Shown one piece after another: positions 4,092-28,922 of a stretch of 50,330 nt of DNA (position 1 is its first letter; each line of letters begins with the position of its first letter). The notes below the pieces were generated by a model that saw only the letters and a program-made list of their open reading frames with translations, searched no databases and had not been told where the DNA came from. The stretch comes from Meridianimarinicoccus zhengii (GTDB lineage Bacteria; Pseudomonadota; Alphaproteobacteria; Rhodobacterales; Rhodobacteraceae). A program made the position numbers and the translations under genes. The stretch lies in contig NZ_QDFI01000027.1 in assembly GCF_003254465.1 (NCBI RefSeq), forward strand, positions 1-50,330, written 5' to 3'.

Positions 4092-4763
4092 TCAGGCCGT
4101 CACGTCATTGCCGCGACGACGCCCGACAAGGCGAAGCGCAATGATGCCCGCCCCCATCAGCGGCAGGGCCGCGGGCAGCGGCACGGGCGCGACCGGGGCC
4201 ATCGTGAACGACGCATTGTCGATATAGCCATCGTTGTTTGTGCCGCCGCCGATCCGCGTCGACGTGATGACGAAGCTCAGCGACGCCGTTTCGAACGGAA
4301 CAAGGCCGGACAGGCTCTGGAAGTATTTCCCGCCTGCCTCGATATCCGAATCCCAGTACCCGTCATAGGACGTGCTCGACAGCAGCGTGGCGCTGTCGAT
4401 GCGTTCGTTGTCGGCATCGTTGAAGAACACCGACAGCGTGCCGCGGTCCTCCTGGTAGCGCCACCCGAACAGGTCCGCCGAGAGCGTGAAGCTCAGGCCG
4501 GTCGTTGCAAGGCTGTCCAGTTGCGGCGACGTCAGTGCATAATCCTGAAAGATCATGTGGAACGCGCCCGGTCCGGGGAAGAAATACGGACCGGTGTCGA
4601 TGGTCGGATCGCCGTCGCGGGTCGTGTAGACGCCGGTCCATCCCGTGGTGTTGGTATCGAACGTCCCGTTGACGATCAGGTTCTCGGTGGCGGCTGTGGC
4701 GGAAACGGCGGCGGTAAGCAGTGTCACCGCGGCGAGTCCGCCCGAAAGGGCCATTTTCAGCAT
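4092..4763 (-). CDS. Exported protein with VPLPA-CTERM sorting signal
   Basis: A 223-residue secreted protein. It has a signal peptide (MLKMALSGGLAAVTLLTAAVSATAA), a mature domain beginning NLIVNGTFDTNTTGW that resembles carbohydrate-binding-like beta-sandwich modules of PEP-CTERM proteins, and a classic C-terminal sorting tail: the VPLPAALPLM motif, one hydrophobic segment, then the basic cluster RLVGRRRGN. In rhodobacterial VPLPA-CTERM systems an exosortase-type enzyme recognises this tail and moves the protein to the envelope or surface polysaccharide. No exosortase gene is visible here. The upstream minus-strand gene carries a tail of the same type, so the two are probably co-sorted. The substrate of the beta domain is unknown. 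Confidence 0.8.
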   Translation of the reverse strand: MLKMALSGGLAAVTLLTAAVSATAATENLIVNGTFDTNTTGWTGVYTTRDGDPTIDTGPYFFPGPGAFHMIFQDYALTSPQLDSLATTGLSFTLSADLFGWRYQEDRGTLSVFFNDADNERIDSATLLSSTSYDGYWDSDIEAGGKYFQSLSGLVPFETASLSFVITSTRIGGGTNNDGYIDNASFTMAPVAPVPLPAALPLMGAGIIALRLVGRRRGNDVTA

Positions 4764-4870: not shown

Positions 4871-5962
4871 TCAGCCCCGTGCGGCCTTGGAACGGCGCAG
4901 CATGGCCAGTGCGCCGAACGCACCTGCGAGCAGCGGCAGGGCTGCGGGAACGGGCACCGGTGCGACCGACGTGTTGATGGCCGACACGGTCCCGGCTGCC
5001 GCGATCGAATCGATCACCGCGCGTGCAAGGTCGGGATTGTCGGTGATGAGGCCATCGAGACCCCAGGCGATGTGGTCGCTCATCTGCGCGAAAGCAGCGT
5101 CGAGGTCTGCCGGGCGATAGGTCCAGGCGAAGACGCTCAGGTCAAGATCATGTGCCGCTGCGATGAACTCTTCCGTCAGGGAGCCGGTGTTCACGGCCAC
5201 GGTATCGACATATTTCGAGAGATTGGTCAGCGAGACAAGGTTGCTGACGCCCCACTCGTCGCCGATCATCGTGGCGCTGCCCAACTGGGCGACGCCCATG
5301 TCGACGTCGAATTCGTCCTGAAGCAACAGGAAGTCGAACACGTTGCCGAAATCGAAACCCTGCACGACCGACTTGTCCGAGGTCGTGAAGCCCTTGTCCG
5401 CCAGTGTCGCGATCACGGCGCGGTTCGTGTCCGCGTTGAAGCCGTACTTCGCTTCGGTCAGTATGCCGACATTCGTGCCATTGGCGCTGTTGTAGTCGTT
5501 CAGCGCGTCGAGCATGTCGGCGAAGGTCGGGATGCGGTAGGCATCCGGATCGGACGGCTCGAACCCCGGATAGGTCAGTTGCCCGCTGCCGGTCGGCTTC
5601 AAGGTCAATGACTGCAGTTCGTCGTAGTCGAAGTCAGAGACGCGGTAGTTGCCATTGCGCGGTGCGTAAACCTCGGCCACGTTCGTCGTGCGGGTCAGCG
5701 TCGTGTCATGCATCGCGATCAGCACGCCGTCGCGGGTCATCATGACATCCGTTTCGATCAGTTCGGCACCCATCTCGGCCGACAGTTCGTTGCCGCCGAT
5801 CGAGTTCTCCGGGAGATAGGCCGGCGCGCCGCGGTGCGCGACAACGACCGGCGCCTTGCCGTTCAGCGTGCGGAAGCCGTCGAAGACGGCCGCATCGGCC
5901 GCCATGGGGCCGGTCGCAAGGATGGCGAACGCGAGTGCGTACAGGGCATGGTGTTTTCTCAT
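4871..5962 (-). CDS. Glycerophosphodiester phosphodiesterase with VPLPA-type sorting signal
   Basis: A 363-residue protein. It has a signal peptide (residues 1 to about 24, ending MAADAA), a GDPD TIM-barrel, and a sorting tail VPVPAALPLL followed by a hydrophobic segment and LRRSKAARG. Catalytic features of the family are present: His43-Arg44 in AHRGAP, Glu70 and Asp72 in IETDV, and His85 in AMHDTTLTRTT. The enzyme should hydrolyse glycerophosphodiesters to glycerol 3-phosphate and an alcohol outside the cytoplasm, supplying phosphate or glycerol from lipid headgroups. The sorting tail is the odd part, because secreted GDPDs are usually free or lipoproteins. It lies 107 bp upstream of the other VPLPA-CTERM gene on the same strand. 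Confidence 0.88.
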   Translation of the reverse strand: MRKHHALYALAFAILATGPMAADAAVFDGFRTLNGKAPVVVAHRGAPAYLPENSIGGNELSAEMGAELIETDVMMTRDGVLIAMHDTTLTRTTNVAEVYAPRNGNYRVSDFDYDELQSLTLKPTGSGQLTYPGFEPSDPDAYRIPTFADMLDALNDYNSANGTNVGILTEAKYGFNADTNRAVIATLADKGFTTSDKSVVQGFDFGNVFDFLLLQDEFDVDMGVAQLGSATMIGDEWGVSNLVSLTNLSKYVDTVAVNTGSLTEEFIAAAHDLDLSVFAWTYRPADLDAAFAQMSDHIAWGLDGLITDNPDLARAVIDSIAAAGTVSAINTSVAPVPVPAALPLLAGAFGALAMLRRSKAARG

Positions 5963-6094
5963 GAATTCGGTCTTCCGTCATATCAGGGATGCGGCGTGTC
6001 CAGCGCAGCGCATGCTGCCCGGCCCGCGCCGTGCGTCCCGCGTAGGCTGTCCGGATGACGTGCCGATAACATCTTGGTAACGAAAAAGTTAAAC

Positions 6095-6110
6095 CTTGGG
6101 TTGACCCAAG
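6095..6110. promoter_or_regulatory. CTTGGGT-TG-ACCCAAG palindrome in the gap upstream of the GDPD gene
   Basis: Perfect 7-bp arms with a 2-bp centre, 133 bp upstream of the GDPD start, next to an AT-rich run (6071-6094). It is the only clear structure in the 384-bp gap 5963-6346 and looks like a dimeric regulator site, perhaps controlling the GDPD gene, for example by phosphate or carbon status. The regulator is unknown. Confidence 0.35.
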
Positions 6111-6346
6111 ATCGTGGAGCGGGCGCAGGCTGCCGCGGCAAGGTGTTCATCGACACCCGCTGCGGGCTTTCATCGCGCGCCGCCAGAATGGCACAGGCCG
6201 CGTCGCCGATCAGGCGAGTAACTGCTAATGCCTGACCTTCGGCATCCATACCCGTCGGCGGTATGGCGGCGAAAGGGTCCCTGTGCGACCGTCGCGCGAC
6301 CCAAGCAATGCGTCGCCAGCATCCGGCAACGCGGTGGCCCGTGTCG

Positions 6347-7390
6347 TCAGGCGGCGCCTGTTGCGCCGCCGTGGTCGAGGCCCAGGCGTGCCGCCAGCAT
6401 CAGCGCGGTGTCCCCGTCGATGATCAGCCCCTTGGGAACACCGCTGCGCAGGAGTGCCTCTGTCGCTTCGACCTTTTCGGTTCCCGCCGCCAGAAGGACC
6501 GTGAAGGAGCGCCGGAGATCCTCGAACCCCACCGCGAGGGTCCGGCTGTTGAGATCGTGGGATACAGGATAGCCCGACGCATCGAAGAAGATGCCGTTCG
6601 TGTCGCCGACAGCACCGGCCGCGCGCAGTTCCGCCAGTTCGGTGGACGAGATCATGCCTTGCCGCCGCAGCAGCGAAGACTCGGTCAGTTCCCCCACGCT
6701 GATGAGCGCAAGATCGGCATAGCGTGCCAGCTCCAGCGGGCGCGTCACGGCCTGCTGGGAATAGAGTACGTCCCGGTCGGCCTCGCTGTCGGCGATGAAG
6801 GGAACGGGCAGGAAGAAGCCCTCTGCGCCCGACGCCTGTGCCAGCGCGTGGATCACTTCGAACGGGTTGAACGACGAGTTGGCGGTCAGCGACCCCATGA
6901 GACTGATGAAACGTGCCCTGGGCGCGCTGACCCCGGCCATGTGCTTGCTCATCTGCGCCAGTGTCCGGCCCCAGCCCGTGCCGACCACGAGATCGGGCTT
7001 CGCCGCGAGGGCATCGCGCAGATGCGCCGCTGCCGCTGATCCGACCGCACGCAGCGGGAATTCCGCCAGGATCGGGTTGTCGGCCTTGTCCGCGGGGGTC
7101 AGCGACAATGCGGGCGTGGCGATGCAGAACTGAAGCCCGAATTCCTGACGGATCGCGTTCTCCACGGGGAGCAGGCCGACATCGCGCCCGTCGATGGTGA
7201 TCGACACCAGCCCGCTGTCGCGCGCCTGGGCCAGCAGCTTGTTCACCCGCGCGCGGGTCAGCCCCATGCGCCCTGCCGTCGCCTCCTGGTTCAGCCCGCC
7301 CACGTAGTAGAGCCAGGCGGCGCGCGTCATCAACTGGCTCTCGGACATCTGCATCATGGGCGGGACCATCTCCGATTTTCCGAAGGCCAT
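6347..7390 (-). CDS. SorC-family sugar-responsive transcriptional regulator
   Basis: About 347 residues. It has an N-terminal helix-turn-helix (AAWLYYVGGLNQEATAGRMGLTRARVNKLLAQA, given here as landmarks AAWLYYVGG and GLTRARVNKLL) and a long C-terminal sugar-binding domain of the SorC/DeoR type (VVGTGWGRTLAQM, FISLMGSL, GVPKGLIIDGD). Members bind a phosphorylated sugar and regulate the adjacent catabolic operon. The start is uncertain: ATG 7390 fits family length, ATG 7369 is an option, and the frame is open to a TTG at 7429, inside the shared control region; none has a convincing Shine-Dalgarno. It is divergent from the ABC/kinase operon at 7507. SorC regulators often accompany FGGY kinases, as for erythritol and AI-2, which supports control by a kinase product. 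Confidence 0.85.
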   Translation of the reverse strand: MAFGKSEMVPPMMQMSESQLMTRAAWLYYVGGLNQEATAGRMGLTRARVNKLLAQARDSGLVSITIDGRDVGLLPVENAIRQEFGLQFCIATPALSLTPADKADNPILAEFPLRAVGSAAAAHLRDALAAKPDLVVGTGWGRTLAQMSKHMAGVSAPRARFISLMGSLTANSSFNPFEVIHALAQASGAEGFFLPVPFIADSEADRDVLYSQQAVTRPLELARYADLALISVGELTESSLLRRQGMISSTELAELRAAGAVGDTNGIFFDASGYPVSHDLNSRTLAVGFEDLRRSFTVLLAAGTEKVEATEALLRSGVPKGLIIDGDTALMLAARLGLDHGGATGAA

Positions 7391-7416
7391 CAAGCACAAG
7401 TAAGATACAAAAGTTT

Positions 7417-7433
7417 TTGACATTGACAAATGT
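7417..7433. promoter_or_regulatory. Tandem TTGACA boxes and overlapping dyad between the SorC gene and ABC operon
   Basis: TTGACA occurs twice back to back (7417-7422 and 7423-7428) on the plus strand. The second copy is inside an imperfect palindrome, ACATTGACAAATGT (7420-7433). This looks like an operator overlapping the -35 region of the transporter operon and is the likely SorC site. The -10 region is not obvious. Confidence 0.45.
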
Positions 7434-7506
7434 AATGCCGCGGCGCAGTCTGCGCATGTTCACGCCGCATAAAGGTGTGACGACGGAACCAGGGGAGGAG
7501 AAACCA

Positions 7507-8442
7507 ATGAACGTCATCTTCAAGGGCACGCTCGCGGGCGCCGTGGTCGTCACCCTTTCGGGCGGCGCGATGGCCATGGACATCGCGTGGGTCCATTCCA
7601 ACGCGGCGGCGCAATCCGAACAGCGGGTGAAGGCCGGTTTCGAGGCGTGGCTTGCCGACAGCGGCAAGGACTGGAATGTCAGCTTCCTCGACAGCGGCGG
7701 GTCGGGCGAGGCGACGGCCTCGAACCTTCAGGACGCGGCGTCGCGGGGCGTGGATGCGATCATCATCACGATGTCCGACCTGCGCGCCAGCCGCGCCGCG
7801 ATCACCGCGGCCGCCGATGCGGGCATCCCGATCTTCTCGGTGGACAGCGGGTATATCGACGGCGTTGTCGTGGATGTCACCACGAACAACTGGGCCATGT
7901 CGGCGGACGTATCGCCCTATCTGCTCGACCAGATGGGCGGCGAGGGCAACCTAATCTTCCTGCGCATGGCCGAACACCATGGCACCCGCAAGCGCGGCGA
8001 CGTGATGGAGGACGTTCTTCAGGAATACCAGGGTGTCGAGGTCCTGGTCGAACACAACATCGACTACACGGCGTTCTTCGAGGACACGACCAGCCGCATG
8101 CAGGACTATGTCGCGCGCTTCGGCACCGATATCGATGCCGTCTGGGCGCCGTGGGACGAACCGGCGCAGGCGGCGATCAACGTGATGCAGGCGGCGGGGC
8201 TGACCGACGTCAAGGTGATCGGCATCGACGGCCATCCGCAGGCCGTGGCCGAGGTGTGCAAGCCTGACAGCATGATGATCGCCACCGTCAGCCAGCCGTT
8301 CGAAGGCATGGGTGCGCAGATCGGCGACTGGATCACCGCCATCGTCGAGAACGGCACCCCCGCCGAAGACGTGATCCCCGCGACGACCATCTACATGGAT
8401 GCGCCGCTGGTCACCAAGCAGAACTGCCAGGACTTCATGTAA
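7507..8442 (+). CDS. Sugar ABC transporter, periplasmic substrate-binding protein (RbsB type)
   Basis: 311 residues from ATG 7507, preceded by the strong site GGGGAGGAG. It has a signal peptide (residues 1 to about 23, ending GGAMAMD) and a two-lobed periplasmic-binding fold of the ribose/galactose class (GVDAIIITMSD, GIPIFSVDSG, LTDVKVIGIDGHPQA). It should capture a sugar or polyol in the periplasm for the ATPase and permease that follow. It is the first gene of the operon and is separated from the ATPase by 112 bp holding a hairpin, an arrangement that usually raises binding-protein mRNA levels. Ligand identity cannot be read from the sequence. Confidence 0.88.
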   Translation: MNVIFKGTLAGAVVVTLSGGAMAMDIAWVHSNAAAQSEQRVKAGFEAWLADSGKDWNVSFLDSGGSGEATASNLQDAASRGVDAIIITMSDLRASRAAITAAADAGIPIFSVDSGYIDGVVVDVTTNNWAMSADVSPYLLDQMGGEGNLIFLRMAEHHGTRKRGDVMEDVLQEYQGVEVLVEHNIDYTAFFEDTTSRMQDYVARFGTDIDAVWAPWDEPAQAAINVMQAAGLTDVKVIGIDGHPQAVAEVCKPDSMMIATVSQPFEGMGAQIGDWITAIVENGTPAEDVIPATTIYMDAPLVTKQNCQDFM

Positions 8443-8452
8443 CCTCCCGGTG

Positions 8453-8481
8453 GCCGCGGCGCGCCCTCGGGCCGCCGCGGC
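8453..8481 (+). other. Intercistronic hairpin between binding-protein and ATPase genes
   Basis: GCCGCGGCG (8453-8461) pairs perfectly with CGCCGCGGC (8473-8481) around an 11-base loop, 10 bp after the stop of the binding-protein gene. There is no U-tract. It probably protects or partly terminates the message so that binding protein exceeds membrane components. Confidence 0.45.
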
Positions 8482-8554
8482 GCTGGTGGTGTCCATCGAA
8501 CGAATGTCCCGAAATCCGCACCGCCCAGGCGGTGCGGCAGGGAAGGAGTGCGCC

Positions 8555-10066
8555 ATGCGCGTGCAACTCGAAAACCTTGTCATGGATTTCCCCGGAAGCC
8601 GCGCGCTCGACCATGTGAGCGCCGATTTCGGCTTCGACGAGGTGCACGGCCTCATCGGCGAAAACGGCGCGGGCAAGTCCACGCTGGTCAACATCCTCGG
8701 CGGATCGCTCGCGCCGACTGCTGGCACGGTATCCATCGGCGGCAAGCCCGTGACCTGCCGCACACCGCGCGACGCGCTGGAGCAGGGCATCGCCCATGTC
8801 AGCCAGGAAGGCAGCCTTGTGCCCGGCCTGACGGGGGCCGAGAATATCCTGCTGGGTGAGGAGCCCAGGCGCGCCGGCGTGATCTCACGCCGGGACCTGA
8901 TGGCGCGGGCGCAGGCGCTGCTGACAGAATGGTTCCCGCAGGTCCGTATCGCGCTCGACCGGCCGGTCGAGGACCTGGATATCGCGGATCGCAAGGTGAT
9001 CGAGATCGTGCGCGGCCTGCGCGGCGACATCCGGCTGCTGATCCTGGACGAGCCGACCGCGACCCTGCAGAGCCGGGAAAAGGCACAACTGTGGGACATC
9101 ATCCGCAGCCTGCCCGGACGCGGTGTGGGTGTCGTGCTCATCAGCCATTTCCTGTCGGAAATCCGCGCATTGTCTGACCGGATCACCGTGCTTCGCGACG
9201 GGGTGCATGTGGCGACCCTGCCAGCCGACAGCGCGACCGAGGGCGCGCTTGTGGACCTGATGCTGCGTCGCACGGGCAGCGGTGCCGGTCTCGGCATGCG
9301 CAGGGACATCCCGCACCCCGGTGCGCCGGTCCTGTCCGTGCGCGACTGGCAGGCAGGTGGCGTGCAGGTGCCGGACTTCACACTCCGCGCGGGCGAGATC
9401 GTCGGCCTGATCGGTCTGACCGGCGCGGGGCATTTCGGCTTTGCCCGGTCGCTCTACACGCAGGCGGGGCTGGTCGGCGGCAGGATGCAGGTGGGTGCAA
9501 CCGATGTCACGGACCGTGGCCCACGGGCCATGCAGCGCCACGGGATCGGCTTCGTGCCCGACAACCGGATGACCTATGCGCTGTCCGGCGAAGGCAGCAT
9601 CGTCGAGAACCTGTCGATGGTGCATCCCGAATGCGCGAAGATCCTGCCGGGCGGCATTCTCAGCCGGCGCCGTGAGACCCAAGAGGGCGCACGGATCTTC
9701 GATCTGCTCGGTATCCGCGCCAGCGGTCAGGGCCAGCAGGTCAAGACACTGTCGGGCGGCAACAAGCAGAAGGTCAGCCTTGGCAAATGGCTCTACGGGG
9801 CTGCGGGCCGATACCGCGCGATGATCTTCGTTGAGCCGACCGAGGGTGTCGATATCGGCGCAAAGCAGGAAATCTACGGCCACATCCGCAAGCTGGCGGC
9901 CGAGGGCGCGGGGATTATCGTCGCGTCGTCGGACCTGCTGGAAATCGAGCACCTGGCACACCGGGTCGTGCCCTTCGTGGCCGGGCAGGCCGGGAACGAC
10001 ATCGCCGCCGCCGAATTTTCCGAAGCCCGGTTCATCGCCGCCATGGCAGGAGAGACCACACAATGA
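8555..10066 (+). CDS. Sugar ABC transporter, tandem-domain ATP-binding protein
   Basis: 503 residues from ATG 8555 (site GGAAGGAG). There are two ABC domains, as in RbsA/XylG/MglA. Domain 1 has an intact Walker A (GENGAGKST) and Walker B (LLILDEPTA) but a degenerate signature (EDLDIADRKVIEI). Domain 2 has a degenerate Walker A (GLTGAGHFGFAR, no GKS/T), a good signature (LSGGNKQKV) and a Walker B with Val-Glu-Pro in place of Asp-Glu-Pro. This split, with one competent site built from complementary halves, is common in this subfamily. It energises import with the permease, whose ATG overlaps this stop by four bases. Confidence 0.9.
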   Translation: MRVQLENLVMDFPGSRALDHVSADFGFDEVHGLIGENGAGKSTLVNILGGSLAPTAGTVSIGGKPVTCRTPRDALEQGIAHVSQEGSLVPGLTGAENILLGEEPRRAGVISRRDLMARAQALLTEWFPQVRIALDRPVEDLDIADRKVIEIVRGLRGDIRLLILDEPTATLQSREKAQLWDIIRSLPGRGVGVVLISHFLSEIRALSDRITVLRDGVHVATLPADSATEGALVDLMLRRTGSGAGLGMRRDIPHPGAPVLSVRDWQAGGVQVPDFTLRAGEIVGLIGLTGAGHFGFARSLYTQAGLVGGRMQVGATDVTDRGPRAMQRHGIGFVPDNRMTYALSGEGSIVENLSMVHPECAKILPGGILSRRRETQEGARIFDLLGIRASGQGQQVKTLSGGNKQKVSLGKWLYGAAGRYRAMIFVEPTEGVDIGAKQEIYGHIRKLAAEGAGIIVASSDLLEIEHLAHRVVPFVAGQAGNDIAAAEFSEARFIAAMAGETTQ

Positions 10067-11046
10067 GTTCGCCGACCTTGACCGCAACGCAGGCGCCGGC
10101 GCACGGCCAGCGCCGCCAGTGGGTGCAGAAATACTCGACGCTCGTCGTGCTGGTGCTGATGTTCCTCGGGTTCTCGCTGTTCGTGGACAGGTTCATGACC
10201 GTGTTCAACCTGACCAACATCCTGCAGCAGATCGCGATCCTGACCATCGTCGGCACCGGCCTGACCTTCGGCTTCGCCGCCCGCGAGATCGACCTGTCCG
10301 TGGGCTACACGGTCGGTCTGGCGGGCATTCTCGTGCCGCTCTTGCTGGTCGGGGGCACGCCACTGCCGCTTGCGCTGCTGGCGGGGCTTGCGGCGGGGCT
10401 GGTCGTGGGGTTGGTCAACGGGCTGCTTGTCACGCGGGTCGGCATCCCGTCGCTGATCGCCACGCTGGCCATGGGGTCGATCCTGTTCGGCGTGAACTTC
10501 CTCGCGACCGGCGGGCGGGCGATCTATGGCGGGCTGCCCGACAGCTACCTGTTTCTCGGACAGGGGCGGCTCTGGGGCATTCCGGTGCTTGCCTTCTTCA
10601 TGGCGGCATCCGTGATCGTCGGCTGGTTCGTGATGGAGCGCACGATCTTCGGGCGCTACGTCTATGCCGTGGGCGGCAACCAGAAGGCGGCCGAACTGTC
10701 CGGTGTGCGGGTCACGTTCTACCGCACCGCCGCGCTGGTGATCGTATCGGTCTTCGCGGTCGTCGCCGGAACGCTTCTGGCCGCGCGACTGGGGTCGGGC
10801 CAGCCGAACGTGGGCGAACGCTACCTGCTCGACGGTCTGGCGACGGTCTTCATCGGGATGACCATGTTCCGCCCGGGCACGGCAACCGTTCTCGGCACAT
10901 TCTGCGGCGCGCTGTTCATCGGCGTCATCAACAACGGCCTGAACCTGATCGGGATGGATACCTACATCCAGAACATCGTGAAGGGCGTCATCATCCTGAT
11001 TGCGGTGGCCATCGTGTCGCGCACCACCAAACTCAAGCTTCTGTGA
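10063..11046 (+). CDS. Sugar ABC transporter, permease (BPD_transp_2 family)
   Basis: A 327-residue polytopic membrane protein with about 8-10 hydrophobic segments. It carries family landmarks EIDLSVGYTVGLAG after the third segment and VGGNQKAAELSGV in the cytoplasmic loop that contacts the ATPase. It starts in an ATGA overlap with the ATPase gene. Only one permease gene is present, so the channel is presumably a homodimer, as in RbsC. The E1alpha gene starts 8 bp after its stop, which ties transport and the dehydrogenase-type genes into one transcript. Confidence 0.9.
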   Translation: MSSPTLTATQAPAHGQRRQWVQKYSTLVVLVLMFLGFSLFVDRFMTVFNLTNILQQIAILTIVGTGLTFGFAAREIDLSVGYTVGLAGILVPLLLVGGTPLPLALLAGLAAGLVVGLVNGLLVTRVGIPSLIATLAMGSILFGVNFLATGGRAIYGGLPDSYLFLGQGRLWGIPVLAFFMAASVIVGWFVMERTIFGRYVYAVGGNQKAAELSGVRVTFYRTAALVIVSVFAVVAGTLLAARLGSGQPNVGERYLLDGLATVFIGMTMFRPGTATVLGTFCGALFIGVINNGLNLIGMDTYIQNIVKGVIILIAVAIVSRTTKLKLL

Positions 11047-11054
11047 GGCAAGCC

Positions 11055-12107
11055 ATGACCCCCCCCGAAACCGCTGCCGCGTCCCGGACGGCGCCGCAGT
11101 CCAACACCGATCTGCTGGGCCTTTACACCGACATGCGCCGCGTGCGCACCTTCGAGGAACGGGTGGGCGAACTGTTCGTCCGCGGGCAGAGCGCGGGGTC
11201 CATGCTGCACCTGTCCATCGGCGAGGAATCCGCCGCCGTGGGGGTGTGTTCCGCCATGCGCGACGGCGACACCTTCACGACCCACCATCGCGGGCACGGG
11301 ATCTTCCTGGCGCGCGGGGCCGATCCGAACCGGATGATGGCCGAGATCGCGGGCAAGCAGGACGGGTATTGCCACGGCAAGGGCGGGTCCATGCACATCG
11401 CGGACATGGGGCTGGGCCATCTGGGCGCCAATGCCATCGTCGGCGGCGGCATCCCGGCGGTCGTGGGTGCGGGGCTGGTGGCCAAGCGCCGGGGTACCGG
11501 GGCGGTGTCCATCGCGTTCTTCGGCGACGGGGCCATGCAGCAGGGCATCCTGTACGAGTCGATGAACATGGCCGCGCTGTGGGACCTGCCAGTGATGTTC
11601 GTGTGCATCAACAACCAGTACGGGATGGGCACGCGGGTGGACCAGGCGACGCGCGCCACGAAATTCGAGGAACGCGCCATCGCCTTCGGGCTCGCGGGCC
11701 GCGCGGTGGACGGTCTTGACGTGCTGGAGGTCCGGGAGGCCGCGGCCGAACTGGTGGACGGCGCACGGACAGGCAAGCCTGCGTTCCTGTCGGTGGATTG
11801 CTACCGCTTCTTCGGCCACGCCCGCAAGGACAAGAGCCCCTATCGCACCGAGGCGGAGGAAACCGCCGGGCGCAAGCGCGACCCGGTCGCCCATGCCCGC
11901 GCCGCCCTGCTGGATGCCGGGACGGACGAAGCGCTTCTGGACCGGATCGACGGGGATGCCGCCACCGAGATGGACGCGACGATCGATTTCGCCGTCGCCT
12001 CGGCGGAGCCGCCACTGTCGAGCATGTTCCTTGACGTCTACGGCCCGGACGAGCCGATGCCGGAACCGCTGGCAACCCGTATCGACCGCGTTCTGGCAAG
12101 GGAGTGA
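11055..12107 (+). CDS. Acetoin/2-oxoacid dehydrogenase-type E1 alpha subunit (thiamine-diphosphate dependent)
   Basis: 350 residues from ATG 11055. It has the E1alpha signatures: the HLSIGEESAAVGV region, THHRGHGIFLARG, YCHGKGGSMHIAD, and the ThDP/Mg motif from GDGAMQQG to CINNQYGMGT. It resembles acetoin dehydrogenase AcoA and branched-chain E1alpha more than pyruvate dehydrogenase AceE. In acetoin dehydrogenase the alpha2beta2 E1 cleaves a methyl-ketol and passes the acyl group to lipoyl-E2. Position between a sugar importer and a sugar kinase suggests that the substrate is sugar-derived rather than acetoin itself. Confidence 0.85.
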   Translation: MTPPETAAASRTAPQSNTDLLGLYTDMRRVRTFEERVGELFVRGQSAGSMLHLSIGEESAAVGVCSAMRDGDTFTTHHRGHGIFLARGADPNRMMAEIAGKQDGYCHGKGGSMHIADMGLGHLGANAIVGGGIPAVVGAGLVAKRRGTGAVSIAFFGDGAMQQGILYESMNMAALWDLPVMFVCINNQYGMGTRVDQATRATKFEERAIAFGLAGRAVDGLDVLEVREAAAELVDGARTGKPAFLSVDCYRFFGHARKDKSPYRTEAEETAGRKRDPVAHARAALLDAGTDEALLDRIDGDAATEMDATIDFAVASAEPPLSSMFLDVYGPDEPMPEPLATRIDRVLARE

Positions 12108-12113
12108 CCGACC

Positions 12114-13088
12114 ATGGTTGAGATGACATATCGCGACGCACTGCGTCAGGCGCTGATCGATGCGATGACCGAGAACGACGATATCTTCGTGATCGGCGAA
12201 GAGGTCGGGCGCTATGGCGGGGCCTACGGCGTCACCAAGGGGCTGATCGACCAGTTCGGGCCGGAACGGCTGCTGGACACGCCGATTTCCGAACCGGCAA
12301 TCGTGGGCACCGCCGTGGGCGCTGCCATGGCCGGGATGCGCCCCGTGGCCGAACTGATGTATGTCGATTTCATCGGCATGACGATGGACCAGTTGTGCAA
12401 CCAGGCCGCCAAGATCCGCTACATGTTCGGCGGCCAGATCGGTGTGCCGATGGTGCTGCGCACGCAAGGGGGCACGGGCCGGTCGGCAGGCGCGCAGCAT
12501 TCCCAAAGCCTTGAGGCCTATGTGATGCACACGCCGGGCCTGCGGCTGGCGATGCCGGGCACGGTGGCCGACGCCTATCACCTGCTGCGCATGGCGTTGA
12601 CCCAGCCCGACCCGGTGGTGTTCATCGAACACAAGGCCCTTTACGCCATGAAGGAGGACGTGGACCTGACCGCGCATGTCCCGGACTGGGGCAAGGCGGC
12701 CGTGCGCCGGCGCGGCACGGACGTGGTGATCGTGACCTATTCGCGCCAGGTGCACTACGCGATGCAGGCGGCCGAGGCGCTGGCCGGGCAGGGGATCGAG
12801 GCGACGGTGATCGACCTGCGCACGCTCAATCCGCTGGATTTCGACACGATCCGGGCGGAGGTCGAACACGTCGGGCGCGCCATGGTGGTGTCCGAAGGGC
12901 CGCTGACCGCGGGCGTGGCGGCAGAGCTGGCCGCACGCATCTCCGAGGAATGTTTCGACTTCCTGCACGATCCGGTCATCCGCATCGCGGGCGAGGACAT
13001 CCCGATTTCGGTGTCCGTCGCGCTGGAGGCGGGGTCCGTCCCCTCGGCGGAGATCGTCGAACAGACGGCGCGGAAGCTGGTGGCATGA
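12114..13088 (+). CDS. Acetoin/2-oxoacid dehydrogenase-type E1 beta subunit
   Basis: 324 residues from ATG 12114 (GGGAG site), 6 bp after E1alpha. It shows typical E1beta features: VIGEEVGRYGGAYGVTKGL, the DTPISE segment, MPMVLRTQGG-like GVPMVLRTQGGTG, AQHSQSLEAY and the C-terminal transketolase domain (VVIVTYSRQVHYAM, VIDLRTLNPLD). It forms the E1 heterotetramer with the preceding gene and contributes to the ThDP site. Its stop overlaps the E2 ATG (ATGA), so E1 and E2 should be made in matched amounts. Confidence 0.87.
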   Translation: MVEMTYRDALRQALIDAMTENDDIFVIGEEVGRYGGAYGVTKGLIDQFGPERLLDTPISEPAIVGTAVGAAMAGMRPVAELMYVDFIGMTMDQLCNQAAKIRYMFGGQIGVPMVLRTQGGTGRSAGAQHSQSLEAYVMHTPGLRLAMPGTVADAYHLLRMALTQPDPVVFIEHKALYAMKEDVDLTAHVPDWGKAAVRRRGTDVVIVTYSRQVHYAMQAAEALAGQGIEATVIDLRTLNPLDFDTIRAEVEHVGRAMVVSEGPLTAGVAAELAARISEECFDFLHDPVIRIAGEDIPISVSVALEAGSVPSAEIVEQTARKLVA

Positions 13089-14638
13089 CGACAGGCACGC
13101 TGAAGATGCCCCGGCTGGGCGAGACCATGGACCAGGGGCAGATCGCAAGCTGGCTGGTTGCCGAGGGCGACAGCTTCGCCCGTGGCGACCCGCTGATCGA
13201 GGTGGAGACCGACAAGACCGTGGTGGAGTATCCCGCTCTCGGTCCGGGCGTGCTGACCGAGCGGCTTGTGGCCGAAGGCGACACCGTGCCGGTCGGGGCG
13301 CCCATCGCGCGGGTCGATACCGGCGACGGGCCGGACTGGACGGTGGAGGGTGACGACACGCCGTCCGCGGTCGCGCCTGAACCGGATGCGCCTGAACCGG
13401 TGACGCAGGTGACCGATCTGCTGATGCCCCGGCTTGGGGAGACGATGGAAACCGGGGACATCGCCGCGTGGTTGATCCAGCCCGGCGACAGCTTCGCCCG
13501 CGGCGATGCGATCCTGGAGGTTGAAACCGACAAGACCGTGGCCGAGGTGCCCGCGCTCGTGGCCGGGACGCTGGTGGAGATCCTTGCCGAAGCGGGCCAG
13601 ACCGTGACCGTCGGTGCGCCCATCGCACGGATCGAAACCGGGGAGGCTGTGGACACCCCTGCGCCCGTGCCTGCGAAGTCGGACCCGGCTGTCGCAGCGC
13701 CGGCCAAGCCGATCCCCGCGCGTCCAGCCGCCGGGGCGGATGGTACGCCGCTGCGGGCCACCCCTGTCGCCCGCCGTCTGGCCCGGCGCGCGGGGGTTGC
13801 GCTGTCCGCGCTGACGGGTACCGGGCGCCGCGGACGGATCGAGGCGCGGGACGTGACCGCTGCTGCCGCCTCGCCCGCGGGCCTGCGGGTCACGCAAGGC
13901 ATCGCTTGTGCCGAAACCGGCCCTGCGGACGGCACGCCGGTCCTGCTGCTGCACGGCTTTGCCGGGGACCACACCACCTTTGCCGGACTGTCCCACGCGT
14001 TAGGCCGGGCCGGGTGCCGTGTCGTCGCCGCCGACCTGCCCGGGCATGGTGCGACCGTGGCCGGGGCGGACGATCCAGACACGCTCGCCGCCGCCATGCT
14101 GCCCTTCGCCCGCACGCTGCCGCGGGGGGTGCATGTGGTGGCCCATTCGCTGGGGGCGCTGCCCGCCGTTCGGATGGCCGAGGCGGGCCTTGCGGCATCG
14201 CTGACGCTGATCGCGCCCGCAGGACTGGGCAGCCATATCGACGCCGGCTTCATCGACGGGCTGGCCGCCGCGCAAAGCCCCGGCAGCGTGGGCCACCTGC
14301 TGCGCCGCATGACCGACGGCCCGAACGGCCTGTCGGACGACGCGGTCGCGCAGATCCACGCGACGCTCGCGCAGGGCCGCCTGCGGGGGCTTGCCGCGGC
14401 GCTGCACGGGCCGGGCGGGCAGAGCGTGAACCTTGTGCCCGCGCTCGCGCGGCTGGCTGACCGCATGCCCGTGCGCATCGTCGTGGGCCATCGTGACCGC
14501 GTGGTGGACTGGCGCGATGCACTGGCCGTGTCGCCGATGGTCGCGGTGCATCATGTCCCGCAAGCCGGGCACATGCCGCATTGGGAAGCGCCGCTCGAGG
14601 TGCGCGCCCTGATCCTGAAAGCCGTGGGAGCAACGTGA
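13085..14638 (+). CDS. AcoC-like E2: two lipoyl domains, E1/E3-binding domain and alpha/beta-hydrolase domain
   Basis: 517 residues. There are two near-identical lipoyl domains (about 4-78 and 111-186) with acceptor lysines Lys44 and Lys150, both in VETDKTV. A peripheral-subunit-binding domain follows (about 223-256, ATPVARRLARRAGVAL and GTGRRGRI). The C-terminal half is an alpha/beta-hydrolase (about 284-515) with nucleophile elbow AHSLG (Ser355), HGFAG oxyanion region and the HMPHWE histidine, in place of the CAT acetyltransferase domain. AcoC proteins of acetoin dehydrogenase also have an alpha/beta-hydrolase fold, but usually with a single lipoyl domain in about 370 residues. It should transfer the acyl group from E1 to CoA. 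No E3 gene is nearby; a housekeeping E3 may serve. Confidence 0.85.
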   Translation: MTTGTLKMPRLGETMDQGQIASWLVAEGDSFARGDPLIEVETDKTVVEYPALGPGVLTERLVAEGDTVPVGAPIARVDTGDGPDWTVEGDDTPSAVAPEPDAPEPVTQVTDLLMPRLGETMETGDIAAWLIQPGDSFARGDAILEVETDKTVAEVPALVAGTLVEILAEAGQTVTVGAPIARIETGEAVDTPAPVPAKSDPAVAAPAKPIPARPAAGADGTPLRATPVARRLARRAGVALSALTGTGRRGRIEARDVTAAAASPAGLRVTQGIACAETGPADGTPVLLLHGFAGDHTTFAGLSHALGRAGCRVVAADLPGHGATVAGADDPDTLAAAMLPFARTLPRGVHVVAHSLGALPAVRMAEAGLAASLTLIAPAGLGSHIDAGFIDGLAAAQSPGSVGHLLRRMTDGPNGLSDDAVAQIHATLAQGRLRGLAAALHGPGGQSVNLVPALARLADRMPVRIVVGHRDRVVDWRDALAVSPMVAVHHVPQAGHMPHWEAPLEVRALILKAVGAT

Positions 14639-14973
14639 TGACGACCGATCCGAAACAGGCCCTCGACGCCGCGAAGACCCGCATGGCAGCTTTCGCCAAG
14701 GCCGCACCCGGCGCGATGCGCGGCTTTTCCGGCATCGCCGCCGCGGTCGGAAAGGACGGCGCGCTGAGTGCTGCGCAGAAGGAACTTGTGGCCACGGCCC
14801 TGGCGGTGGCCAAGGGCTGCGACGACTGCATCCTGTATCACGTCGCCGCGGCAAAGCAGCTAGGCGCGACCGAGGCGGCACTGGTCGAAACGCTCGAGGT
14901 CTGTGTTGAAATGGGGGGCGGACCGGCGATCATGTATGCCGGCAAGGCGCTGGAGGCCTATCGCGCCGACTAG
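14638..14973 (+). CDS. Carboxymuconolactone decarboxylase/AhpD-like protein
   Basis: 111 residues, starting in a one-base overlap with the E2 stop (TGATG). It is a small helical protein of the CMD family with the redox pair Cys-Asp-Asp-Cys followed by ILYHV, as in AhpD (CxxC...H). AhpD uses lipoyl groups on E2 as its electron source for peroxide reduction, so a role in redox maintenance of the lipoyl domains or as a lipoamide-linked adaptor of this complex is plausible. A catalytic decarboxylase role is less likely because the CxxC is kept. Operon position supports functional coupling to the E2. Confidence 0.8.
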   Translation: MTTDPKQALDAAKTRMAAFAKAAPGAMRGFSGIAAAVGKDGALSAAQKELVATALAVAKGCDDCILYHVAAAKQLGATEAALVETLEVCVEMGGGPAIMYAGKALEAYRAD

Positions 14974-14999
14974 CCGGGAAACGACGAGGGAGGAGTCTC

Positions 15000-16490
15000 A
15001 TGGCCTATGTCCTGACCGCCGATGGCGGCACCGAAAGCCTGCGCGCGCGGGTCTACGACCTGAACGGCACCTGCCTGGGCAGCCATGCGGTGCCCTATCG
15101 GACCGAGTTTGCGGCTGGCGCACGCGCCGAGCAGGACCCAGCCGACTGGTGGGCGAATTTCGTGACCGCTTCGCGGGCGGCGATCGCCGCGGCGGCGGTC
15201 GATCCGGGGGCGATCGAGGCCATCGCCTATGCGACCACGAGTTGCAGCGTCGTCGCGCTGGACCGGAACGGGGACGCCCTGCGCCCCGCGCTGATCTGGA
15301 TGGACGTGCGCGCCAATGCGGAAGCCGACGCGGTGCTGGCCACGGGCGATCCCGCGCTGGCCTTGAACGGTGCGGGTGGCGGGCCGGTGTCGGCCGAGTG
15401 GATGATCCCCAAGGCGCTCTGGCTGAAGCGCAACGACCCGCAGGTCTATGACCAAGCCTATCGCATCTGCGAATACCAGGACTACCTGACATACAAGCTG
15501 ACGGGCGAATGGGCGGCATCCCTGAACAATGTCGGGCTGCGCTGGCACTACCGCAACGACGCCGGGGGCTGGGCCGCCAGTCTGGTCGACGCGCTGGGAA
15601 TGGGCGATCTTGTCGGCAAATGGCCGTCCCGCGTTGTCGCGCCCGGCGAGGTCGTCGGCACCCTGACGGCGCATGCGGCTGCGGCGCTGGGGCTGAGGCA
15701 ATCCGTCCGGGTCGTGCAGGGCGGCGCGGATGCGCTGATCGGCATGATCGGGCTTGGCGTGTCGCAGCCCGGCCAGCTTGCGATGATCACCGGGTCGTCG
15801 CATCTGCAATTCGGCGTGACCGACGCGGCGTTGAACGCGCCGGGGGTGTGGGGGTCCTACGCCGATATCGTGTATCCTGGCCGCCACATCGTCGAGGGCG
15901 GGCAGACCTCCACCGGGTCGATCATCAACTGGCTCGGGCGGCTGACCGGCGGTCTGGATTACGACACGCTCAACGCGAAGGCGGCGGCGCTGGAGCCGGG
16001 CTGCGACGGGCTGATCGTGCAGGACCATTTCCAGGGCAACCGGACACCGTTCACGGACCCGCTGTCGCGCGGCGCCATCGTCGGGCTGACGCTGGCCCAT
16101 GAAACGCATCACATCTTCCGCGCCATCATGGAGGGGATCGGGTTCGGCACCCGTGCCATCCTCGATGCCTTCGCGCAGGCGGGCTATACCGGGTCCGAGA
16201 TCACGGTGGGCGGCGGCGCCGCGGCGTCGGACCTGTGGCTGCAGATCCATGCCGACACGTCGGGCCTGCCGATCCGGCTGCCCGCGTCGCCCGACGCGCC
16301 CTCCACGGGGTCGGCGGTATTGGCGGCCCATGGCGCGGGGCATTTCGATAGCATCGACGACGGCATCGCCGCGATGGTGCATCCGGGCCGGACCATCGAC
16401 CCGATCCCGGCCAATGTCGCGAAATACGACGTGATCTACCGGCGCTACCGCGCGCTTTATCCGGCAATGAAGGGCGTGGCCGATGCCTGA
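15000..16490 (+). CDS. FGGY-family carbohydrate kinase
   Basis: 496 residues from ATG 15000 behind GGGAGGAG. It is an FGGY kinase in both domains: N-terminal phosphate motif LTADGGTESLRARVYD, central RPALIWMDVRAN with the usual catalytic Asp region, and C-terminal GGGAAASDLW adenosine motif. These enzymes phosphorylate pentoses, pentuloses, polyols, glycerol or AI-2 from ATP. It is 26 bp after the AhpD-like gene and overlaps the next dehydrogenase by eight bases. Its substrate is probably the imported sugar or its oxidised ketose. Xylulokinase and erythritol kinase are the nearest well-known types, but specificity cannot be read from motifs. Confidence 0.87.
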   Translation: MAYVLTADGGTESLRARVYDLNGTCLGSHAVPYRTEFAAGARAEQDPADWWANFVTASRAAIAAAAVDPGAIEAIAYATTSCSVVALDRNGDALRPALIWMDVRANAEADAVLATGDPALALNGAGGGPVSAEWMIPKALWLKRNDPQVYDQAYRICEYQDYLTYKLTGEWAASLNNVGLRWHYRNDAGGWAASLVDALGMGDLVGKWPSRVVAPGEVVGTLTAHAAAALGLRQSVRVVQGGADALIGMIGLGVSQPGQLAMITGSSHLQFGVTDAALNAPGVWGSYADIVYPGRHIVEGGQTSTGSIINWLGRLTGGLDYDTLNAKAAALEPGCDGLIVQDHFQGNRTPFTDPLSRGAIVGLTLAHETHHIFRAIMEGIGFGTRAILDAFAQAGYTGSEITVGGGAAASDLWLQIHADTSGLPIRLPASPDAPSTGSAVLAAHGAGHFDSIDDGIAAMVHPGRTIDPIPANVAKYDVIYRRYRALYPAMKGVADA

Positions 16491-17241
16491 GGGGATCGAA
16501 CGGTTCAGCGTCGCCGGCCGCCGCGCTCTGGTCACCGGCGGGGCGCGCGGCATCGGGCATGCCATTGCCAGCGGGCTTGCCGCGGCAGGTGCGCAGGTCA
16601 TCGTCGCCGACCGCGACGGGGATGCAGCCAATCAGGCGGCGCGCGATCTGGACGGCACGGCGCTCACGCTCGATGTGACCGACCCTGCGGCGGTGGACGC
16701 CGCGGCGGCGCAGGTCGCCGACGACGCACCGCTGGATATTCTCGTGAACAACGCGGGCATCGTGCACAACGCCCCCGCGCTCGACGTCGATCCGCTGGAC
16801 TGGCAGCGGGTCATCGATGTGAACCTCTCCGGCGTCTTCTACACCGCGCGCGGCTTCGGGCGGGCCATGACACGGGCCGGGCGCGGGTCCGTCATCTGCA
16901 TCTCGTCGATGTGCGGCAGCGTGCCGGTCCACCCGCAGCCGCAGGCCGCCTACAATGCCGCGAAGGCCGGGGTGAACCTGCTGACCAAGTCGCTTGCGGT
17001 GGAATGGGCGCCCTTGGGGGTGCGCGTCAACGCCGTGGCGCCCGGCTATACCGCGACCGAACTGACACTGGCCGGTCGCGCCAATCCCGACTGGTTCGAC
17101 ACGTGGCTGCGCATGACGCCGCTGGGCCGGCTTGCGGATCCCGACGAGATCGCGAGCGCGGTGATGTTCCTTGCCTCCGATGCCGCCAGCTTCGTCACCG
17201 GGACCGTCCTGACGGTGGATGGCGGCTACACCGCCCTTTGA
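16483..17241 (+). CDS. Short-chain dehydrogenase/reductase
   Basis: 252 residues; the ATG lies eight bases inside the kinase gene. A classical SDR: NAD(P)-binding TGGARGIGHA, an acidic residue after beta-2 (ADRDGDA) suggesting NAD preference, NNAG, catalytic Ser in ICISSMCG, Tyr-x3-Lys in YNAAKAG, and C-terminal VTGTVLTVDGGY. It likely oxidises or reduces a hydroxyl/keto group of the sugar handled by this operon, for example polyol to ketose. Together with the next SDR it gives two redox steps around the kinase. Confidence 0.88.
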   Translation: MPEGIERFSVAGRRALVTGGARGIGHAIASGLAAAGAQVIVADRDGDAANQAARDLDGTALTLDVTDPAAVDAAAAQVADDAPLDILVNNAGIVHNAPALDVDPLDWQRVIDVNLSGVFYTARGFGRAMTRAGRGSVICISSMCGSVPVHPQPQAAYNAAKAGVNLLTKSLAVEWAPLGVRVNAVAPGYTATELTLAGRANPDWFDTWLRMTPLGRLADPDEIASAVMFLASDAASFVTGTVLTVDGGYTAL

Positions 17242-17256
17242 GAGAAAGGAAACCAC

Positions 17257-18009
17257 ATGTCCGAAGCACGCACGGCTCTTGTGACCGGCGCCAGCCGGGG
17301 GATCGGCGCCGCCATCGCGCTGGGGCTGGCCGAACGTGGCTATGACCTGGCACTGAACGACATCGACCGGCAGGCCGACGCGTTGGCCGACATCGCAACG
17401 CGGATCGACGCGATGGGCCGCACGGCGCTGACCGTCACCGCCGATGTCAGCGACAAGGCGCAGGTGGATGCCATGGCCCGGACGGTCCTGAACCGGTTCG
17501 GCCACCTGGATGCGCTGGTGAACAACGCGGGTATCCTGATCGCGGGCGAGGTCGATGGCCTGCCCGAAGCGCATTGGGACGCGGTCATGGACATCAACGC
17601 CAAGGGCAGCTTCATGGTGATCCAGGCGTTCCTGCCCGCCATGAAGGCGCGCAAATACGGGCGGATCGTGAACATCGCGTCGATCGGGGGCAAGCACGGC
17701 GCGCCGGAACAGGCGCATTATTCCGCATCGAAGGCCGCCGTGATGGGCTTCACCCGCGTTCTGGCGCAGGAGGTCGGTCCCCTTGGCATCACGGCGAACT
17801 GCGTCTGCCCCGGCATCATCCTGACCGACATGGGGCGGGTCAATCTGGACGATCCGGCGATCCGGGACGCCTGGAAGGACAAGACCGCCATGCGCCGGAT
17901 CGGTGCGCCCGAAGACGTGGTCGGTCCGGTCGCGTTCCTCGCCTCTGACGACGCGGGTTTCGTGACCGGGCAAAGTCTCAACGTGGATGGCGGGATCGTG
18001 CTGAACTGA
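17257..18009 (+). CDS. Short-chain dehydrogenase/reductase
   Basis: 250 residues from ATG 17257 (AAAGGAA site), 15 bp after the first SDR. Classical motifs: TGASRGIGAA, NNAGIL, catalytic Ser in NIASIGG, YSASK, and GQSLNVDGGI. It has Asn-Asp-Ile after beta-2 (LNDIDRQ), which suggests NAD(H). It is only moderately similar to the preceding SDR, so they probably act on different carbons or in different directions. Last gene of the operon. The 214 bp that follow hold no clear terminator. Confidence 0.88.
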   Translation: MSEARTALVTGASRGIGAAIALGLAERGYDLALNDIDRQADALADIATRIDAMGRTALTVTADVSDKAQVDAMARTVLNRFGHLDALVNNAGILIAGEVDGLPEAHWDAVMDINAKGSFMVIQAFLPAMKARKYGRIVNIASIGGKHGAPEQAHYSASKAAVMGFTRVLAQEVGPLGITANCVCPGIILTDMGRVNLDDPAIRDAWKDKTAMRRIGAPEDVVGPVAFLASDDAGFVTGQSLNVDGGIVLN

Positions 18010-21245: not shown

Positions 21246-21255
21246 GGCTTTCCTT

Positions 21256-22173: not shown

Positions 22174-22211
22174 GTCTTGTCCTGTCGTTCAGTGGTGGCG
22201 GGCGGCCCGCC

Positions 22212-24877: not shown

Positions 24878-24880
24878 GCG

Positions 24881-26110: not shown

Positions 26111-26120
26111 GGCTCGTCTC

Positions 26121-27641: not shown

Positions 27642-27668
27642 TGCAGCATCCTCACGAATGTTGGGACT

Positions 27669-27692
27669 CGCCGCCGTGCCGGCGGGGCGGCG
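27669..27692 (-). other. Intercistronic GC hairpin between chvE-like and gguA-like genes
   Basis: CGCCGCC (27669-27675) pairs with GGCGGCG (27686-27692) around a 10-base GC-rich loop. It is in the 125-bp gap after the binding-protein stop; the position parallels the hairpin in the other ABC operon of this window (8453-8481). Confidence 0.35.
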
Positions 27693-27766
27693 GACCGGCA
27701 CTGCACGGGGCAGGCCGATCCGCCGGACCGGTGTCGGACCGGGTAGGGCGCCGAGATAGCCGGCGT

Positions 27767-28822: not shown

Positions 28823-28893
28823 ATCTTCCTCCTCCGAAGGCGCGCGCTCTCTTGATCCGGCGGCGCCCTGCGACAAGAGGTTAGAAAAAAACG

Positions 28894-28922
28894 TCATAAC
28901 AAGCTAATGCAATCAATGGCAA
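28894..28922 (-). promoter_or_regulatory. Sigma-70-like promoter of the chvE operon with overlapping direct repeats
   Basis: On the minus strand, TTGCCA (28922-28917) and TTATGA (28899-28894) are separated by exactly 17 bp, a good -35/-10 pair, about 72 bp upstream of the chvE ATG. The -35 region overlaps a direct repeat CAATCA (28910-28915 and 28920-28925, 10 bp apart) and an AATGC/GCATT dyad (28906-28910 and 28931-28935). These are plausible sites for the divergent LysR protein. Confidence 0.55.

Follow-up and report, generated by a model that had tools for sequence, protein, structure and literature searches.

What would a complex of the 2-oxoacid dehydrogenase type be doing beside a sugar importer and a sugar kinase? 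The question is raised by an eleven-gene series in Meridianimarinicoccus zhengii, a member of the Rhodobacteraceae, that lies within the 50,330-nucleotide stretch of contig NZ_QDFI01000027.1 analyzed here (the window). The initial annotation had read the series as one joint pathway of import, phosphorylation and cleavage, possibly acting on 1-deoxy-xylulose 5-phosphate (DXP). On the strength of gene content and comparison, we tentatively favor, at a little below an even chance, a reading in which the operon would import a deoxy sugar or deoxy sugar alcohol and a 1-deoxyketose phosphate would be cleaved to acetyl-CoA and an aldose phosphate; DXP as the actual substrate is our leading guess, made by analogy. 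The genes of the series are as follows.

6347..7369, minus strand: SorC/LsrR/DeoR-type sugar-binding transcription regulator, divergent from the other ten genes (PF04198, 180.9 bits)
7507..8442, plus strand: CUT2-type solute-binding protein (Peripla_BP_4; PF13407, 110 bits; best PDB matches 3l49 and 4wt7)
8555..10066, plus strand: CUT2 sugar ABC transporter ATPase, with two ABC domains
10063..11046, plus strand: CUT2 permease (BPD_transp_2; PF02653, 141.7 bits)
11055..12107, plus strand: thiamine-diphosphate-dependent E1alpha of a 2-oxoacid/acetoin-dehydrogenase-like complex (PF00676, 218 bits; basic loop GHARKDKS at residues 254-261)
12114..13088, plus strand: E1beta subunit (passes NF006667 with 356 bits, cut-off 321)
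13085..14638, plus strand: E2 of the AcoC type (passes NF011457 with 400.5 bits, cut-off 307; PF00364, PF02817, PF12697)
14638..14973, plus strand: AhpD/carboxymuconolactone-decarboxylase-like protein with a CDDC...H motif (PF02627, 69.7 bits)
15000..16490, plus strand: FGGY carbohydrate kinase, pentulokinase-like (PF00370, PF02782)
16483..17241, plus strand: short-chain dehydrogenase/reductase (SDR) oxidoreductase 1 (SDR1)
17257..18009, plus strand: SDR oxidoreductase 2 (SDR2)

The layout is as first described, with all eleven genes found, the SorC gene divergent and four neighboring pairs overlapping (ATPase/permease and E1beta/E2 by 4 nt each, E2/AhpD by 1 nt and kinase/SDR1 by 8 nt). The widest gap in the series, 112 nt, separates the genes for the binding protein and the ATPase. 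The longest SorC frame opens at a TTG (7429), and we adopted the ATG at 7369 as the start by choice. With two lipoyl domains, an E3-binding domain and an alpha/beta-hydrolase domain, E2 has the AcoC layout. No curated NCBIfam cut-off was reached by the SorC regulator (154 bits against NF053881, cut-off 420), the binding protein, the permease, E1alpha or the kinase (285 bits against the XylB model TIGR01312, cut-off 380), and none was exceeded among the best 25 of 184 matches of the ATPase.

A scan of a genome collection with the kinase gave at least 80 loci at 55 to 81% kinase identity, which were laid out by tblastn; the layouts show only the gene families used as queries. A locus was considered usable if it had at least 4.5 kb on both sides of the kinase, as was true of 58 of 80, and the core was called present where E1alpha and E1beta matched at more than 55% identity and E2 at more than 30%, together with the FGGY kinase. 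All four genes were present in 53 of the 58 usable loci, always on one strand and with gaps of less than 900 nt, and because these loci keep E1alpha, E1beta, E2 and FGGY together, the linkage exceeds chance. The kinase gene follows E2 in 46 of the 53 loci and precedes E1alpha in 7. Four loci from other searches likewise carry E1/E2 (L111 and L113, 74%; L118, 57%; L119, 62%). The core was retained in 47 of 49 loci at a kinase identity of at least 65% and in 6 of 9 below that value; the link between the kinase and E1/E2 loosens under about 65% identity. The initial annotation had regarded absence of E1/E2 from orthologous kinase loci as the observation that would sink a joint pathway, and among the usable loci such absence was seen in 5 of 58. 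The kinase itself is sparsely distributed: matches of at least 57% were found in 6 of 196 genomes of the sampled order, M. zhengii included, and matches beyond E 1e-100 were found in 5 of 385 genomes of the sampled class.

Around this core, the supply side varies. The 53 core-bearing loci include a SorC match of at least 30% identity in all but one (52), a window-type binding protein of at least 60% identity in 33, SDR2 at 60% identity or more in 32, the AhpD-like gene in 31 and SDR1 at 50% identity or more in 25. Another ABC system, the binding protein of which is LsrB/RhaS-like, occurs in 16, a D-tagatose-3-epimerase-like enzyme (PDB 7dz2 match, 479 bits) in 11, DhaK in 9 and MtnK with MtnA in 3 (L093, L104 and L109). 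Thus, of the ten-gene co-occurrence that the initial annotation envisaged, the four core genes are conserved, whereas the importers and SDRs come and go. Since the core is constant while the supply side varies, the kinase product is probably what the complex uses, with different hosts reaching that product from different starting compounds. The imported compound may itself differ among loci because the upstream enzymes (3-epimerase, MtnK/MtnA, DhaK/DhaL) do.

In the operon copy of Sinorhizobium meliloti Ak57 (L111), the E2 region (12308-13626) is annotated as two separate genes. Epimerase relatives also occur in an operon of another kind (L127, 7457-15014, and L128, 7409-15008), which has a LacI-family regulator, an ABC importer with two permeases, an FGGY kinase and a class II aldolase, with no E1/E2 annotated.

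The genome of M. zhengii holds a second E1/E2 set, which was found with E1beta and E2 queries on contig C156 (locus L143, C156:22000-38000; operon 4895-16001). There, the genes for SorC, E2, E1beta, E1alpha and a 444-residue oxidoreductase share one strand and are divergent from a CUT1-like ABC importer, the series of which runs into the beginning of a sugar kinase gene (72% match) at the edge of the fetched stretch. The E2 is of the AcoC type (358.8 bits, cut-off 307). The oxidoreductase matches Pfam DRL_cat (224 bits) and PDB entries 3upl/3upy over 437 residues (594 bits), which are labeled oxidoreductase in the PDB table and which we take to be the DRL of Brucella abortus. According to excerpts of two papers, DRL (DXR type II) produces methylerythritol phosphate from DXP (PMC3424233; PMC3847144), and two related families, DLO1 and DLO2, lie outside the DXR-II clade (PMC3847144). 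We refer to the oxidoreductase as a putative DRL; it may belong to DXR-II, DLO1 or DLO2. An ordinary DXR is also encoded in the genome (368 bits, cut-off 315.7), and DRL should therefore not be needed there for isoprenoids; the operon is a candidate pathway for 2-C-methyl-D-erythritol. The presence of a related E1/E2 set and a SorC gene beside an enzyme of DXP and methylerythritol phosphate thus lends indirect support to a 1-deoxyketose phosphate as the substrate.

DRL and E1/E2 also occur together in other genomes. Three of four close DRL matches opened from a plasmid search (58 to 72%) have E1alpha, E1beta and E2 directly downstream; two distant matches (36 to 39%) are without E1/E2. The supply genes consist of an ABC importer and a sugar kinase in L176 (where the kinase is of the PfkB type), L179 and L224 and of a glucitol-type phosphotransferase system (PTS) in L178, L192, L225, L227 and L228, while L226 has neither within its 10 kb. 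Loci L192 and L224 to L228 were reached via their E1 and are left out of the linkage evidence. Either kind of supply would yield a sugar-alcohol phosphate, and the E2 types point to acetyl-CoA: that of L178 is of the AcoC type (362.1 bits), and that of L176 comes near the pyruvate dehydrogenase (PDH) acetyltransferase model TIGR01349 (443.4 bits, cut-off 445). Like the operon of the window, the DRL loci combine E1/E2 with a basic E1alpha loop (see below), a SorC gene (in L143, L176, L178, L179 and L192) and, in most of those opened, an importer with a kinase or a PTS. They differ from it in having DRL (and the PfkB-type kinase in L176) in place of the SDRs and the FGGY kinase and in the clade to which their E1 belongs.

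Two neighboring observations belong here. In Ligilactobacillus salivarius (L180, 7956-15530), a DRL-like gene (39%) stands with a glucitol PTS, GutM, Fsa and transketolase; this may be a version without the lipoyl complex. A third E1/E2 set was noted at L144 (M. zhengii, contig C199:50000-60000) and L189. A reading of the C199 set as PDH was dropped, since in the tree it falls together with a plasmid set of Phaeobacter inhibens, next to which genes for an Xaa-Pro peptidase-family protein and a semialdehyde dehydrogenase are annotated.

How the E1s are related was examined in a tree of E1alpha plus E1beta that comprised the window, 24 chosen relatives, five DRL-type sets, five acetoin-type sets, a Thermus pair labeled acoA, one PDH reference and four others. 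The E1s linked to the FGGY kinase form a clade of their own (support 100), as do the DRL-type E1s (100) and the five acetoin E1s (100). The Thermus acoA pair falls weakly with the PDH reference (70), apart from the other acetoin E1s, and an E1 set of Clostridioides difficile joins the DRL type (100). The latter comes from a plasmid (L186, 4001-9921) that encodes SorC, E1alpha, E1beta, E2 and LpdA, with no DRL annotated in the stretch; its E1alpha has Thr50 and Lys257.

The active site of E1 lies between two chains, and residues 254-261 of E1alpha correspond, we presume, to the loop that is phosphorylated in human E1, close to the mouth of that site. We aligned this loop in 76 E1alpha matches of more than 55% identity and more than 300 residues, none with a stop; the rows L123 to L126 were taken as second copies of L061, L074, L086 and L087, which leaves 72 distinct contigs. 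The FGGY-type loop reads GHAR(K/M)DKS, with Gly replacing Ala in 5 of the 76, and Arg257 and Lys260 are present in every row. All five DRL-type loops (GHSKSDRN or GHSRSDRN) are also basic at both 257 and 260. The five acetoin-type loops read GHFEGD, with Glu at 257, and the PDH reference reads GHSMSDP. Position 50 likewise separates the FGGY type (Met) and the DRL type (Thr) from the acetoin type and the PDH reference (both Phe). As a control, 150 genomes of the phylum were searched with E1alpha, and for each of the 29 best matches kept, a stretch of about 4 kb was fetched. Five of the 29 were basic at both loop places, and these were exactly the five with DRL in the stretch, DRL being present in none of the 24 others; AcoX was found in two loci, both with the acetoin-type loop. 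The two basic charges in a separate FGGY-type clade fit a phosphorylated substrate of some kind.

Several observations weigh against the pathway that we favor, or against DXP as its substrate. Among the usable loci, five (L042, L081, L100, L105 and L110) have the kinase without E1/E2, as do four from other searches as far as they are in view (L112, 50%; L120, 58%; L121 and L122, 55%). The core appears to have been lost from L081, where SorC adjoins the kinase, and L105 has a class II aldolase, FucU, DhaK/DhaL and, by eye, a PfkB-like gene. On the DRL side, a 71% match on a Phyllobacterium plasmid is without E1/E2, and E1 lies within about 1.5 kb in only one, that of M. zhengii itself, of the best 30 DRL-like loci from 385 genomes of the class; most of these 30, at 35 to 42% identity, may be other enzymes. 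DRL had no match in any locus joining FGGY and E1 or among the window's eleven genes, and its only match in the 98 stretches scanned (L031 to L128) is in L128, with no E1 in view. The FGGY-type and DRL-type E1 clades are not sisters, and because they are separate, the DXP reading rests on analogy. All five control loci with DRL belong to one family, and four of them to one genus; they are not independent and therefore show consistency and not repeated origin. The acoA-labeled E1alpha of Thermus has Val at residue 257. Finally, FGGY-clade E1alpha has an invariant His77 and His122 that are missing from DRL-type E1s, and these could point to a more hydroxylated substrate, such as an ordinary ketose.

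In the pathway that we favor, the CUT2 ABC transporter would bring in a deoxy sugar or deoxy sugar alcohol and one or both SDRs would convert it to a ketose, a role that the tagatose-3-epimerase-like enzyme may take over in some loci. The FGGY kinase would then phosphorylate the terminus distal to the keto group. E1alpha and E1beta, with thiamine diphosphate, would attack the C2 ketone and break the C2-C3 bond with release of an aldose phosphate, and the C1-C2 unit would pass to the lipoyl arm of E2 and on to CoA, the arm being reoxidized by the cell's own E3. A 1-deoxyketose phosphate would yield acetyl-CoA and an aldose phosphate; DXP would yield acetyl-CoA and glyceraldehyde 3-phosphate, both central metabolites, in an oxidative reversal of DXP synthase chemistry.

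The accessory genes can be fitted to this scheme. Neither lipoamide dehydrogenase nor lipoyl synthase had a match in the 98 stretches, and the absence of the former is why we assign its role to the cell's own E3. The AhpD-like protein is 42% identical over 105 residues to a carboxymuconolactone-decarboxylase (CMD)-family protein of a Paracoccus denitrificans acetoin-type operon that also encodes E1, an AcoC-type E2 and a 2,3-butanediol dehydrogenase. A GCxxCxxxH motif is present in 38 of 43 aligned relatives, and the protein probably assists in the lipoyl chemistry.

The forward counterpart of the cleavage is documented in excerpts of one study. With pyruvate and D-glyceraldehyde as substrates, purified PDH yields 1-deoxy-D-xylulose, which XylB phosphorylates to DXP, and mutant aceE (point mutants) or ribB raises DXP about 20-fold in cells without DXS and DXR; the output of wild-type PDH is too small to replace DXS (PMC3424233). 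Its reference 39, by title, lists acetoin dehydrogenase along with pyruvate dehydrogenase as an enzyme that forms 1-deoxyketoses. That the reaction would run in reverse, with transfer to the lipoyl arm, is what we infer. A broader proposal, which we consider possible and on the whole rather unlikely, is that two separate operons of this one genome serve catabolism by reversing the initial steps of isoprenoid synthesis. In one, an alcohol, 2-C-methyl-D-erythritol for example, would yield DXP by way of its phosphate and DRL; in the other, the FGGY kinase would lead from a 1-deoxy pentulose or pentitol to DXP or a closely related compound. In both, a thiamine/lipoyl complex, an oxidative DXP lyase, would then split the product into acetyl-CoA and glyceraldehyde 3-phosphate. 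Our literature search returned no paper on the gene set of the window and, among the matches listed, no fitting title on such a pathway, that of the DRL loci included.

Other substrates for the complex have to be weighed against a 1-deoxyketose phosphate. It is unlikely, if less so than the remaining alternatives, that an ordinary ketose phosphate with its C1 hydroxyl kept is split by an oxidative transketolase into an aldose phosphate and glycolyl-CoA (or glycolate, should the alpha/beta-hydrolase domain set it free). Such a substrate would suit the two invariant histidines of E1alpha, to which Tyr83 of E1beta can be added for the FGGY clade, as well as the variant loci with the D-tagatose-3-epimerase-like enzyme, DhaK/DhaL or class II aldolase, and the PDB relatives of the binding protein are mostly labeled ribose-type. 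However, ordinary pentulose phosphates are not known to require such a complex; in a search confined to the window's eleven genes, none resembles an enzyme acting on a free aldehyde or on glycolyl-CoA, E2 passes the acetoin-dehydrogenase model and the related complex of the same genome adjoins a DXP enzyme. We give still less credit to E1/E2 action on a small alpha-hydroxyketone that carries no phosphate (acetoin, hydroxyacetone or an AI-2-like compound), with the kinase serving another branch of the regulon. Acetoin dehydrogenase (AcoABC) turns an alpha-hydroxyketone into acetyl-CoA and an aldehyde and shares with the window E1alpha, E1beta and an AcoC-type E2 with its alpha/beta-hydrolase domain, and the P. 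denitrificans operon adds the AhpD/CMD-family gene to the likeness. Nevertheless, the window's E1 lies outside the acetoin clade with a basic loop in place of GHFEGD, a sugar importer, a kinase and SorC accompany it, and the kinase stands beside E1/E2 in two gene orders. In the 98 stretches, neither AcoX nor AcoR, which L183 carries under the annotations NAD(+)/NADH kinase and sigma-54-dependent regulator, had a match at E 1e-10 that covered more than half of the query. The SorC, FGGY and CUT2 genes also recall the lsr (AI-2) operon, the pathway of which ends in acetyl-CoA, and had prompted a reading as AI-2 metabolism. Yet the kinase reaches only 166.8 bits against the LsrK model NF008187 (cut-off 528), the regulator (111.5 bits against the LsrR model NF011947, cut-off 486) shares only the broad family, LsrF and LsrG have no match among the eleven genes and an E1/E2 complex is there instead; on the LsrK score and the E1/E2 core, we set that reading aside.

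About as improbable, or a shade more so, is a multisubstrate salvage island in which SorC controls several kinases and cleavage systems for different deoxy sugars and in which the kinase need not act in series with the complex in every host. MtnK and MtnA accompany the core in the three loci named above and the kinase without E1/E2 in L110, class II aldolase and FucU occur in other loci and nine kinase loci have no E1/E2 in view; against this, MtnK/MtnA are found in only 3 of the 53 core-bearing loci and are not among the eleven genes of the window. The DHAP (dihydroxyacetone phosphate) shunt of MtnK, MtnA and Ald2 serves the salvage of 5-deoxypentoses, according to excerpts of PMC12632272. 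Its kinase and isomerase families are those seen beside the core in three loci, but it cleaves by an aldolase to DHAP and an aldehyde without E1/E2, and MtnK, MtnA and the aldolase are all absent from the window's eleven genes. Least probable of all, in our estimate, is a dedicated dehydrogenase for pyruvate or a sugar-derived 2-oxoacid downstream of sugar cleavage. Generic E1/E2 family membership would allow it, but no aldolase or dehydratase yielding a 2-oxoacid is found among the eleven genes, and the E1 loop and position 50 are unlike those of PDH-type E1s. Cleavage of a kinase-made ketol phosphate accordingly stands as the best reading of the joint pathway first proposed, given the linkage in 53 of 58 loci, an E1 that falls outside both the acetoin clade and the PDH reference and differs in its loop, and the DRL-linked complex in the genome; its specification to DXP is retained only as the leading guess, the two E1 clades not being sisters.

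Three narrower ideas were tried and rejected. A 5-deoxyribose reading was dropped because MtnK/MtnA occur in only 3 of the 53 loci, and a tetritol/erythrulose reading, suggested by DhaK/DhaL, because DhaK is in 9 of the 53 and not among the window's eleven genes. For an apiose reading, nothing usable was found among the literature matches listed. The structure of a ribulokinase-like FGGY protein, as described in excerpts of PMC4880283, did not settle the substrate of the window's kinase.

The rest of the window holds two further features. Downstream of the operon, on the minus strand (19725-28897), Pfam matches identify an aldehyde dehydrogenase, a DHDPS-family protein, a Gfo/Idh protein, an IlvD/EDD dehydratase, a permease, an ATPase and a binding protein, a set that looks like an oxidative sugar pathway. 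Upstream, at 4092-4763 and 4871-5962, two proteins end in V-P-L-P-A or V-P-V-P-A plus a hydrophobic tail, which resembles a C-terminal sorting signal; the second is glycerophosphodiester-phosphodiesterase-like by eye.

If the pathway that we favor is correct, complexes of the 2-oxoacid dehydrogenase type would have been repurposed to cleave phosphorylated sugars as lyases, and the basic E1alpha loop would be a sequence mark for finding such complexes among those now annotated as pyruvate dehydrogenases. Acetyl-CoA would be made in a way that bypasses pyruvate, with no carbon lost as CO2. 1-Deoxy-xylulose and methylerythritol, which escape from isoprenoid synthesis in plants and bacteria, would both gain a route back into metabolism.

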